Positions 10,706 to 13,047 of a DNA stretch of 64,000 nt are shown here, one piece after another. A program made the position numbers and the translations under genes. How positions within the stretch are numbered: position 1 is the first letter of the stretch; each line of letters starts with the position of its first letter. This DNA is from a virus: positions 1 through 64,000 of the IMG/VR virus record IMGVR_UViG_3300020446_000004; one strand, written 5' to 3'. Below the pieces are notes generated by a model. It had not been told where the DNA came from. It did not search any database and saw nothing but the letters and a program-made list of their open reading frames with translations.

Positions 10706-11881
10706 ATGTCAGAACTATTAGAAAGTCGCTGGCAGGATACAAAAACAGCACTTCTTGAAGGCCTTAACGGCACAAAGAAAAGCGTGATGGCGGCTACACT
10801 TGAAAATACTCGCAAGTATTTGTCAGAAACTGCTACAGCTGGTGCTACATCTGCCGGTAACGTTGCAACTCTTAACAGAGTTATCCTACCCGTTATTAGA
10901 CGTGTAATGCCAACAGTCATTGCTAATGAGCTTGTTGGTGTTCAGCCTATGACAGGTCCAGTGGGTCAAATCCACACATTGAGAGTACGCTACTCTGATA
11001 CAGCAGGCTCAGGCGCAAGCGGAGCAGTAGCTGGTGAAGAAGCACTTTCACCATTCAAGATTGCTGAAGCATATTCAGGTGACGCATCAACTGCTAAAGG
11101 TGCTAATACAGCAGCTTTAGAAGGTTCAGCTGGAAACAGACTAAGCATTCAGATCTTAAAGCAAACAGTTGAAGCTAAATCAAGAAAGCTATCAGCTCGT
11201 TGGACTTTTGAATCTGCTCAAGATGCTCAGTCACAGCATGGTATTGATGTTGAAGCAGAAATTATGGCTGCTTTAGCACAAGAAATAACAGCTGAAATTG
11301 ATCAGGAAGTTATCGGTTCATTGAACACACTTGCTGGTACAGCAGTTGAAACATACGATCAAGCGGCAGTATCAGGTACAGCAACATTTGTTGGTGACGA
11401 GCATGCGGCACTTGCTGTTCAAATCAACAGAGCAGCTAACTTGATTGCACAGCGTACAAGAAGAGGCGCAGGTAACTGGGCAGTTGTAAGTCCATTTGCA
11501 CTTACAATTTTACAGTCTGCAACAACTTCTGCGTTTGCACGTACTACAGAAGGTTCATTTGAAGCACCAACTAACACAAAAATGGTTGGTACATTGAATA
11601 ACGCAATGAAAGTATATGTAAACACATACGCAGGTGATGATGCAAACGTACTTGTTGGTTACAAGGGATCAAGCGAATCAGACGCAGCAGCGTTCTATTG
11701 CCCATATATCCCACTAATGTCAAGCGGCGTTGTATTAGATCCAACATCATTCGAGCCAGTCGTGAGTTTCATGACTAGATACGGATATGTTGAGCTTTCA
11801 AATACAGCTTCTTCATTAGGTAACGCGGCTGATTATCTTGCAAACGTTGCTATAACAAACGGTAACGTAAGCTTCAGCTAA
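10706..11881 (+). CDS. 23: major capsid protein gp23
   Basis: A 391-residue HK97-fold major head protein. It is shorter than T4 gp23, as usual in marine relatives. Family segments include NVATLNRVILPVIRRVMP (from about residue 50), ELVGVQPMTGPVGQIH, the QTVEAKSRKLSARWT stretch near 155, and YCPYIPLMSSGVV near 335. An N-terminal pre-segment contains L-x-E sites (TALLE at about 18, ATLE at about 33) suited to gp21 cleavage. The message ends 20 nt later in a strong terminator, as expected for the most abundant virion protein. Confidence 0.93.
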   Translation: MSELLESRWQDTKTALLEGLNGTKKSVMAATLENTRKYLSETATAGATSAGNVATLNRVILPVIRRVMPTVIANELVGVQPMTGPVGQIHTLRVRYSDTAGSGASGAVAGEEALSPFKIAEAYSGDASTAKGANTAALEGSAGNRLSIQILKQTVEAKSRKLSARWTFESAQDAQSQHGIDVEAEIMAALAQEITAEIDQEVIGSLNTLAGTAVETYDQAAVSGTATFVGDEHAALAVQINRAANLIAQRTRRGAGNWAVVSPFALTILQSATTSAFARTTEGSFEAPTNTKMVGTLNNAMKVYVNTYAGDDANVLVGYKGSSESDAAAFYCPYIPLMSSGVVLDPTSFEPVVSFMTRYGYVELSNTASSLGNAADYLANVAITNGNVSFS

Positions 11882-11900
11882 GTTTTACTTACAAAATATT

Positions 11901-11928
11901 AAATAGGCCCTACGGGGCCTATTTTTTT
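11901..11928 (+). terminator. strong Rho-independent terminator after gp23
   Basis: A perfect 10-bp stem (AAATAGGCCC / GGGCCTATTT) with loop TACG runs straight into a T tract (TTTTTTT counting the stem end). It closes the head-gene transcript. Confidence 0.9.
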
Positions 11929-11929
11929 G

Positions 11930-11937
11930 ACTAAATA
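11930..11937 (+). promoter_or_regulatory. late promoter element ACTAAATA
   Basis: ACTAAATA directly follows the gp23 terminator. The expected start site, some 6-7 nt further on, coincides with the 5' edge of the glutamine riboswitch. Confidence 0.5.
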
Positions 11938-11942
11938 TTTGT

Positions 11943-11995
11943 ACGTTCATCCTACGGGACGGAAGTAGCATTATGCGAAGGAACGCACTCAACTG
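11943..11995 (+). promoter_or_regulatory. glutamine riboswitch (glnA/Downstream-peptide class)
   Basis: Three conserved blocks of this riboswitch class occur in order and spacing: CGTTCATCC, GGGACGGAAGTAGC and GAAGGAACGC. The outer P1 helix is CGTTC (11944-11948) with GAACG (11981-11985), and a short TCC/GGA hairpin with a TACG loop lies inside. Members bind L-glutamine and, in the Downstream-peptide subgroup, precede very short ORFs in cyanobacteria and marine sequences. Here a 50-codon ORF starts 17 nt after the motif, behind AAAGGAGAG. Control is probably translational because no terminator lies between. I identified it by eye from the remembered consensus. Confidence 0.85.
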
Positions 11996-12011
11996 TAAAA
12001 AGGAGAGTGAT

Positions 12012-12164
12012 ATGAACTACAGAGACTTCGAACTTGCTCGCAAAAAAGAGCGTACTAGATTAAGTCATTTAGCAATAATACGCAAACTTATCAAAGAACG
12101 CCAATCTAGACCACGTTGCGAGAAGAATATCTTGAGTAATGATCCAAGATTGCAAAAAATATAA
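12012..12164 (+). CDS. small basic peptide under glutamine riboswitch
   Basis: A 50-residue peptide starting MNYRDFELARKKERTRLS, with 15 Lys/Arg, one Cys and a predicted central helix. I chose the ATG at 12012 because AAAGGAGAG lies 5-12 nt before it; the longer in-frame ATG at 11974 falls inside the riboswitch core and has no such site. In cyanobacteria glutamine riboswitches control small basic glutamine-synthetase inactivating factors such as IF17. This peptide has the same size range and charge, so a host nitrogen-metabolism inhibitor is a reasonable guess, but I see no convincing sequence match. It is isolated between the riboswitch and the ncRNA promoter. Confidence 0.7.
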   Translation: MNYRDFELARKKERTRLSHLAIIRKLIKERQSRPRCEKNILSNDPRLQKI

Positions 12165-12183
12165 CATTTTGGTAAAAAAAAGG

Positions 12184-12212
12184 TTGACATTAGTAATTTA
12201 ATTTGCTATAGT
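12184..12212 (+). promoter_or_regulatory. near-consensus sigma70-type promoter
   Basis: TTGACA (12184-12189) and TATAGT (12207-12212) are separated by exactly 17 nt. No coding sequence follows for about 370 nt; a structured RNA and then a terminator do. This contrasts with the late-type boxes used elsewhere and implies use of unmodified host polymerase. Confidence 0.85.
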
Positions 12213-12218
12213 GTATAC

Positions 12219-12475
12219 ATAAGCTAAAAACTTGTAGCTAGAGTTTTTATATAGTGCAAGGAAGAGGCGTTTACCAGAGCGTCGAACTTGGCAAGTTAGG
12301 GGTGGTACCCAGGCATGGTTGTAGAAATACGTTGTGTCACATCGCTCTCCCGAGCGGAACTTGGCTCCCTGGCTTTGAGAATGGTATCTCGGTCGAGGGG
12401 TTGGAGGTATAACCTAGTCCTCCCTATTTTGCTTATTCTATTTTAGGTATACAAGGCAACTTGTATACCTTTTTC
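12219..12475 (+). ncRNA. candidate structured non-coding RNA, about 250 nt
   Basis: Bounded by the sigma70-type promoter and an intrinsic terminator, with no open frame of note. Local composition is more GC-rich than the neighbours. Visible helices are AGAGCG/CGCTCT (12276-12281 with 12343-12348), which closes a multi-hairpin domain, and inside it AACTT-GGC-AAGTT (12285-12297), GGG-TGGTA-CCC (12300-12310) and GTA-GAAA-TAC (12321-12330). Then come CCGAG/CTCGG (12350-12354 with 12388-12392) and GGAGG/CCTCC (12403-12407 with 12419-12423). It lacks the tmRNA tag/T-arm and the RNase P core motifs. I know no family it matches. A regulatory or ribozyme-like role is open. Confidence 0.75.
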
Positions 12476-12480
12476 CTTTT
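12445..12480 (+). terminator. strong Rho-independent terminator of the ncRNA
   Basis: An 11-bp perfect stem (AGGTATACAAG / CTTGTATACCT) capped by a GCAA tetraloop is followed by TTTTCCTTTT. It sets the 3' end of the candidate RNA and insulates the next late unit. Confidence 0.92.
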
Positions 12481-12482
12481 GT

Positions 12483-12490
12483 GATAAATA
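12483..12490 (+). promoter_or_regulatory. late promoter element GATAAATA
   Basis: GATAAATAC lies immediately after the ncRNA terminator and 95 nt before the 12586 start, identical to the box at 19906. Confidence 0.6.
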
Positions 12491-12496
12491 CATACG

Positions 12497-12585
12497 TCAG
12501 ATAGTGTGCCGCAAGGCGGACTTATGCTGTGACCCACAGCGTAGCCCATAGAACGGGCATCGGACTTCTATAAAGGAGAAAACAA
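12497..12585 (+). promoter_or_regulatory. structured 5' leader with three hairpins
   Basis: Three stems fill the leader: GCC-GCAA-GGC (12508-12517), a 9-bp stem with a 3-nt loop (12523-12531 with 12535-12543), and GCCC/GGGC (12544-12547 with 12555-12558). The heptamer CGGACTT occurs twice (12517-12523 and 12561-12567). The ribosome binding site AAAGGAGAA lies outside the stems. It is longer and more structured than the leaders of most genes here; its role is unknown. Confidence 0.55.
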
Positions 12586-13047
12586 ATGGGAAGACCACTT
12601 AATAAAAGATTATTCGGAGTTGCAGGTGTAGGTCCTACAGCGGCCGGTAACGAAATCAAAGTAAACTTTCATAACGGCTCAGGTGTTAAAGAAGGTTATA
12701 TCGTAAAACAGCTAGGATCAAAAAAATTCCGTTGTGAAGAAATTGAAACAGCTGGTACATTTGATTGTACACTAAAAACTGGGATACTGCCTGCAAACTT
12801 ATCAGCAGGTGAAATGGCAATTTCATTCAAAATGGATGACGGCGAAACTTACGGTGTAAGTAAAATTTCAGGACGTAAAGCAACATTAGCAAAACCAAGT
12901 AATACTGGCTCTAATGCATTTGACGGAAAGTCTGTTGCATGGAACTTTGCAACATCTACTTCAGATGGTGCCGCACAAGTTGAAGAAGCTGGTGACGATA
13001 ATACATTATCAGGTACTGACGATGATGATTTCACAGAAGACGCATAA
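12586..13047 (+). CDS. conserved virion-associated protein (MGRPLNKR family)
   Basis: A 153-residue protein starting MGRPLNKRLFG. I remember proteins with this beginning as common in marine T4-like phages, where they are annotated as structural or hypothetical. The body is beta-rich with alternating Gly and Lys; the last 25 residues are acidic (GTDDDDFTEDA). It opens the adhesin/fibre transcription block under its own late box and structured leader. The precise role is unknown; a small decoration or fibre-associated protein is my guess. Confidence 0.55.
   Translation: MGRPLNKRLFGVAGVGPTAAGNEIKVNFHNGSGVKEGYIVKQLGSKKFRCEEIETAGTFDCTLKTGILPANLSAGEMAISFKMDDGETYGVSKISGRKATLAKPSNTGSNAFDGKSVAWNFATSTSDGAAQVEEAGDDNTLSGTDDDDFTEDA

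Follow-up and report, generated by a model that had tools for sequence, protein, structure and literature searches.

A marine T4-like phage carries, directly behind its major capsid gene, a type 1 glutamine riboswitch that very probably is transcribed late and, by acting on translation, turns on a basic protein of 50 residues when glutamine is bound. This reading concerns the switch and its gene; the target of the protein is considered separately below. The DNA analysed, referred to here as the window, covers the initial 64 kb of a virus record 78,569 bp long, and the locus contains the following features:

10706..11881, plus strand: gp23 major capsid gene, directly upstream of the riboswitch (Pfam PF07068, E 2e-99; phrog_138, major head protein)
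11901..11928, plus strand: strong intrinsic terminator of gp23, AAATAGGCCC-TACG-GGGCCTATTT followed by a T run, read from the sequence and kept in many relatives
11932..11937, plus strand: T4-late-type promoter box TAAATA, 6 nt before P1
11942..11989, plus strand: glutamine riboswitch aptamer, type 1 (glnA; RF01739), with P1 formed by 11944-11948 and 11981-11985
11986..12009, plus strand: expression platform hairpin, CACTC (11986-11990) with GAGTG (12005-12009), enclosing the Shine-Dalgarno (SD) sequence; supported by pairing in 55 leaders and by folding energies
12012..12164, plus strand: 50-aa basic protein MNYRDFELARKKERTRLSHLAIIRKLIKERQSRPRCEKNILSNDPRLQKI, supported by IMG/VR relatives, dN/dS and a conserved C-terminal motif
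12184..12212, plus strand: host sigma70-type promoter TTGACA-17-TGC-TATAGT, opening the transcription unit that follows, read from the sequence
12227..12433, plus strand: manA RNA, full length, a neighbour outside the riboswitch (RF01745)
12505..12588, plus strand: freshwater-2 RNA, which runs up to and includes the start codon (ATG) of the following gene (RF02980, 76 bits; gathering score 49.9)
12586..13047, plus strand: 153-aa gene, syntenic after the cassette, with homologues in most contigs

Aptamer, late-type promoter box and proposed expression platform

The first-pass annotation had described three conserved blocks with closing P1 pairing and read them as a phage-borne glutamine riboswitch. 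All of these elements are present, and the glnA-type model RF01739 matches the aptamer with 50.7 bits, well over its gathering score of 35 (E 3.6e-8; cmscan of the 64-kb window). In 55 relatives of this three-helix junction P2 and P3 covary, with changes on both sides of pairs, and P1 is invariant. We infer that the copy in the window binds glutamine and switches. The other model that the annotation had proposed for searching, RF01704, gave no match in an E-value-threshold Rfam scan of 11880-12700, and an sbrA match from the Rfam scan was rejected as merely the gp23 terminator. The element resembles the type 1 glutamine riboswitch (glnA RNA, RF01739) in sequence, fold, above-cut-off score and 5′ leader position, but differs in being phage-borne, in lying behind the capsid gene with a late-type promoter and in having a micro-protein as its target rather than glnA, PII, amt or gifB. 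Control of tiny ORFs is common to this element and to the Downstream-peptide RNA (RF01704, type 2 glutamine riboswitch) of picocyanobacteria and their environment (PMC2864571); the aptamer here, however, belongs to RF01739 and the peptide is not DUF4278. In some loci tandem glutamine aptamers stand ahead of the peptide (L160, 3866-3977; others in L229, L260 and L232). Tandem aptamer arrangements are linked to a steeper response.

The late-type promoter box reported just upstream is likewise borne out: of 152 unique aptamers, 103 have a TAAATA in the 28 nt that precede them, with a peak 6 nt before P1, compared with 12 of 751 control windows. Because the box lies so close to P1, a transcript starting from it should begin almost at the aptamer.

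The SD sequence, AAGGAG at 12000-12005, is contained within a hairpin that starts at the first base after P1. This hairpin is short, at five pairs, and recurs in every one of 55 distinct leaders, where the five bases after P1 pair with five around the SD sequence; its fourth pair shows a C-G/U-A exchange in 25 of the 55, with smaller changes at the third and fifth pairs. The choice of leaders had relied on the motif of the 3′ arm and had left the 5′ arm free, which makes the pairing a fair test. Over the whole leader structure 96.5% of cells are paired, falling to 31-51% on sliding, and there are 116 double-changed cells compared with 36 in shuffles. A wider set contains 32 distinct arm pairs, of which 13 form the complete 5-bp stem; re-dealing the arms gives 5.1 (s.d. 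1.6). Cyanophage-type leaders, which precede YRGV peptides, have another design or none.

Structural work on the glutamine riboswitch shows that C60, the first base after P1, forms its pair with G23 only in the glutamine-bound state (PMC11477058). In cyanobacteria, type 1 and type 2 glutamine riboswitches alike activate expression (PMC6316151). We equate C11986 with C60. The G23-C60 pair and the SD hairpin are then mutually exclusive, which, together with activation by glutamine in cyanobacteria, argues for a translational ON switch. RNA polymerase would start at the TAAATA late promoter, giving a transcript that begins almost at the aptamer. At low glutamine, CACTC after P1 would pair with GAGTG, closing the hairpin over the SD sequence, and no peptide would be made. 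As glutamine rises, G23 of the bound aptamer would pair with C11986, the first base required by the hairpin; its capture would weaken the hairpin and translation of the peptide would begin. If C60 is barred from pairing, the hairpin of the window loses approximately 3 kcal/mol; the mean loss over the 55 leaders is 2 kcal/mol. With both C60 and A61 barred, a 3-bp stem stays and the SD sequence is mostly paired, such that the computed effect is a weakening and not an opening. The ligand-free lowest-energy fold in the window does not contain the aptamer. That fold displays a pairing of the P1 5′ strand with the start codon (GTTCAT/ATGAAC), but start-codon sequestration was rejected as a general mechanism because AAC or AAT occurs at codon 2 in background proportion and other families start with ATGACT, ATGTCT and others.

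The peptide gene and its counterparts among viruses

The 50-codon ORF is a real gene. Its description as a well-placed ORF for a basic peptide stands, with dN/dS at approximately 0.17 among 54 distinct 50-codon ORFs denoting purifying selection; the distance of 17 nt given for it does not, as the ATG at 12012 lies 26 nt beyond the last base of P1 (11985). Scans of IMG/VR returned 60 relatives with the peptide as query and 491 stretches with an alignment as query. The amino acid sequence is kept at 43% identity across phage groups, including those without the riboswitch, and is most conserved at the C-terminal end (RP[RK]xxKN[IL]xSxDPRLQ.I). AlphaFold2 predicts a confident helix from residue 3 to 32 with a low-confidence tail, as would fit a helix that carries a short binding motif.

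The first-pass annotation had staked its reading on a covariance-model match and on the persistence of the blocks and the ORF in related genomes, and both hold. Riboswitch and peptide are conserved together in approximately 100 loci, some of which are the same contig counted twice. Among the copies compared, in which some contigs are likewise counted twice, the riboswitch is directly upstream in all 109 of the myophage type (MN[YHFK].DF...) and absent from approximately 30 of the podophage type (MNFKWDLKK..., MNLLRDL...); a few podophage-type peptides with a riboswitch were found later (L228, L289). Since podophage-type homologues, including three Pelagibacter podophage isolates, mostly lack the riboswitch, the peptide does not depend on glutamine control for its function.

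Of 50,697 isolate phages, only four, the Pelagibacter (SAR11) phages HTVC023P, HTVC103P, HTVC104P and Mosig, gave better-than-chance relatives of the peptide, and the Mosig homologue is also preceded by RF01739. This suggests that the phage in the window has a SAR11-like host or draws on a shared gene pool; we keep the host as a suggestion because its gp23 is closest to those of jumbo phages of other hosts. A cellular origin of the peptide was rejected: a single scan of 84,980 genomes gave one relative, probably phage DNA. It is a podophage-type peptide on a contig of a Thermoplasmatales metagenome-assembled genome (L340, LSSG01000033.1), where it adjoins a gene reading like a DNA polymerase, and the contig is probably phage DNA binned with that genome.

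The arrangement extends to viral glutamine aptamers as a class. When IMG/VR was scanned with a pattern of the aptamer core, which covers one aptamer subtype, at least 119 stretches matched, near-identical contigs among them. Among the matches listed, 98 of 102 non-identical aptamers are followed, 17-37 nt after P1, by an ATG with a good SD sequence that opens an ORF of at most 80 aa; the same criterion at five control offsets finds 1-2%. In none of these 102 does glnA or another large gene follow directly. Collection of the peptides yielded 109 distinct sequences in roughly a dozen groups, all of them net positive (median +6), compared with 74% positive and a median of +2 for other short ORFs in the same loci. 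One group matches DUF4278, and two other families have no relatives among isolates. Four loci (L002, L003, L024 and L052) have the same riboswitch behind gp23 followed by an apparently unrelated peptide of 28-32 aa (MDRFTFWCFKQLLKQHREKKINFLLKKG), as if peptides had been swapped under a constant switch.

Possible functions of the peptide

Searches of Pfam, PHROGs and PDB folds found no relative of the peptide. The leading guess is that it modulates a host nitrogen-assimilation enzyme electrostatically, by analogy and not homology with the cyanobacterial inactivating factors; acting on glutamine synthetase or another nitrogen-assimilation protein in the manner of IF7 and IF17 is possible, though doubtful. 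The peptide is small, basic and mostly helical, and the case for such a role, itself a guess, rests on the company it keeps. Its riboswitch type is shared with gifB, and DUF4278, the N-terminal part of IF17 (PMC6316151), is matched by a cyanophage-type peptide under a phage copy of the switch (PF14105, E 1e-6). Infection by pelagiphages also raises host glnA, gltBD and amt transcripts (PMC12753301). Against this, the link to glutamine synthetase inactivating factors drawn by the first-pass annotation found no footing: the IF7A model NF052599 does not match the peptide or two of its relatives at E≤10, although an IF7 sequence used as a control matches at E 2.8e-26, and PF14105 likewise gives no match to the peptide at E≤10. 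No glnA is found in the 78.5-kb record. Compared with IF7 and IF17 (gifA and gifB), the peptide is alike in being small and basic and, for gifB, in its glutamine control, but it has no sequence match to the IF7A model and the host group differs.

Alternatively, the peptide could assist late in infection in virion structure or packaging, through the capsid or the DNA, with glutamine serving only as a gauge of amino acid supply, which we regard as rather unlikely. Each of the 32 loci with gp23 in the sequence has the aptamer downstream of that gene and on its strand, in 30 of them within 500 nt (the stretch lacks gp23 in 86 further aptamer loci), and this adjacency holds even for gp23 genes only 32-35% identical. 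An unrelated group of phages has the aptamer 51-57 nt behind a different major head protein (phrog_267), and both the late promoter and the median net charge of +6 would suit such a role. However, podophage relatives of the peptide have genes for Hsp20, a peptidase M15 or DNA polymerase close by, and not the capsid gene, the Melnitz and Mosig copies are located elsewhere, and a post-capsid position may simply give strong late expression. Modulation of a nitrogen enzyme, a structural role and other host targets are inseparable by sequence.

Neighbouring elements, published copies and significance

Two further RNAs, overlooked in the first-pass annotation, form a conserved cassette with the riboswitch: manA (12227-12433) and freshwater-2 (12505-12588). 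The manA RNA scores 54.7 bits, just below its gathering score of 55.2 (E 4.3e-13 over 821 nt), and is found at the same place in relatives at 44-56 bits; freshwater-2 RNA scores 65-69 bits in relatives. As freshwater-2 ends on the start codon of the gene at 12586 and is conserved there, the motif has at least one identified home, as a leader in marine T4-like phages. The product of that gene gave no Pfam or PHROG match, and its homologues typically lie 570-600 nt beyond the start of the peptide in most contigs. In nearly all contigs with both genes the order is kept as gp23, riboswitch, peptide, approximately 410 nt and the 12586 gene, with insertions in a few. In the relatives tested the gap of approximately 410 nt holds full-length manA and freshwater-2, or manA only (L103, L217). 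In Mosig, manA RNA precedes a rubrerythrin gene (L142, 2982-3189).

This conserved order would fit an ORF that is a mere leader peptide read out by the downstream RNA, the true targets being the manA or freshwater-2 genes. Such a reading is highly unlikely, as the amino acid sequence of the peptide is itself conserved, even where there is no riboswitch, and a new sigma70-type unit starts right after it. The near-perfect promoter TTGACA-17-TGCTATAGT ends approximately 15 nt upstream of manA RNA, and a similar promoter follows the peptide in 44 of 52 distinct relatives compared with 0 of 110 controls, so the manA RNA is probably a separate transcript.

Glutamine riboswitches of phages are already published, from cyanophages (PMC9964418) and from Melnitz and Mosig (PMC9004378); a pelagimyophage survey with an older tool had found none (PMC7029224). 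Those of Melnitz, Mosig and S-CREM1 (PMC9004378, PMC9964418) have the same aptamer as the window, but their authors assigned control to tmRNA or nitrogen genes and did not recognise a small ORF as the target. The Mosig copy precedes a homologue of the window peptide, annotated as hypothetical (L143, 4001). In Melnitz (EXVC044M), an unannotated 32-codon ORF, MTLYQQWCYLKAQKEYRRRQKILMYFRIRLKG, stands right after the aptamer (L141, 3072-3170) in a region where only an opposite-strand CDS is annotated, and from this arrangement we think that the small ORF is the target there too. Control by the riboswitch of some other adjacent RNA or gene in place of the ORF, as reported for the Melnitz tmRNA gene ssrA (PMC9004378), is barely credible, given that the Melnitz aptamer lies at the 3′ side of ssrA, that the ORF next to it has an SD sequence and the same hairpin, and that homologues of this ORF also stand behind the aptamers of further contigs (L246, L273, L303).

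What appears to be new is the micro-protein rule, the capsid adjacency and the peptide family; in a limited literature search, no paper made the general statement that the glutamine riboswitches of phages drive micro-proteins. Riboswitches are regarded as rare in phages. Nearly every RF01739-type viral aptamer in this analysis stands before, and probably drives, a tiny basic protein, and the expression platform is conserved and open to testing. Glutamine-gated micro-proteins may, as a tentative but reasonable proposal, be a general phage strategy, in which unrelated phages would use the same late translational ON switch, often behind the capsid gene, to produce tiny basic proteins that can replace one another and that adjust the nitrogen metabolism of the host, or some other late step, once glutamine builds up. 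Cultured phages exist both with the riboswitch (Mosig) and without it (HTVC103P, HTVC104P and HTVC023P), so that the two states can be compared, and the system offers a concrete route to asking what use a lytic phage makes of sensing metabolites at a late stage of infection.
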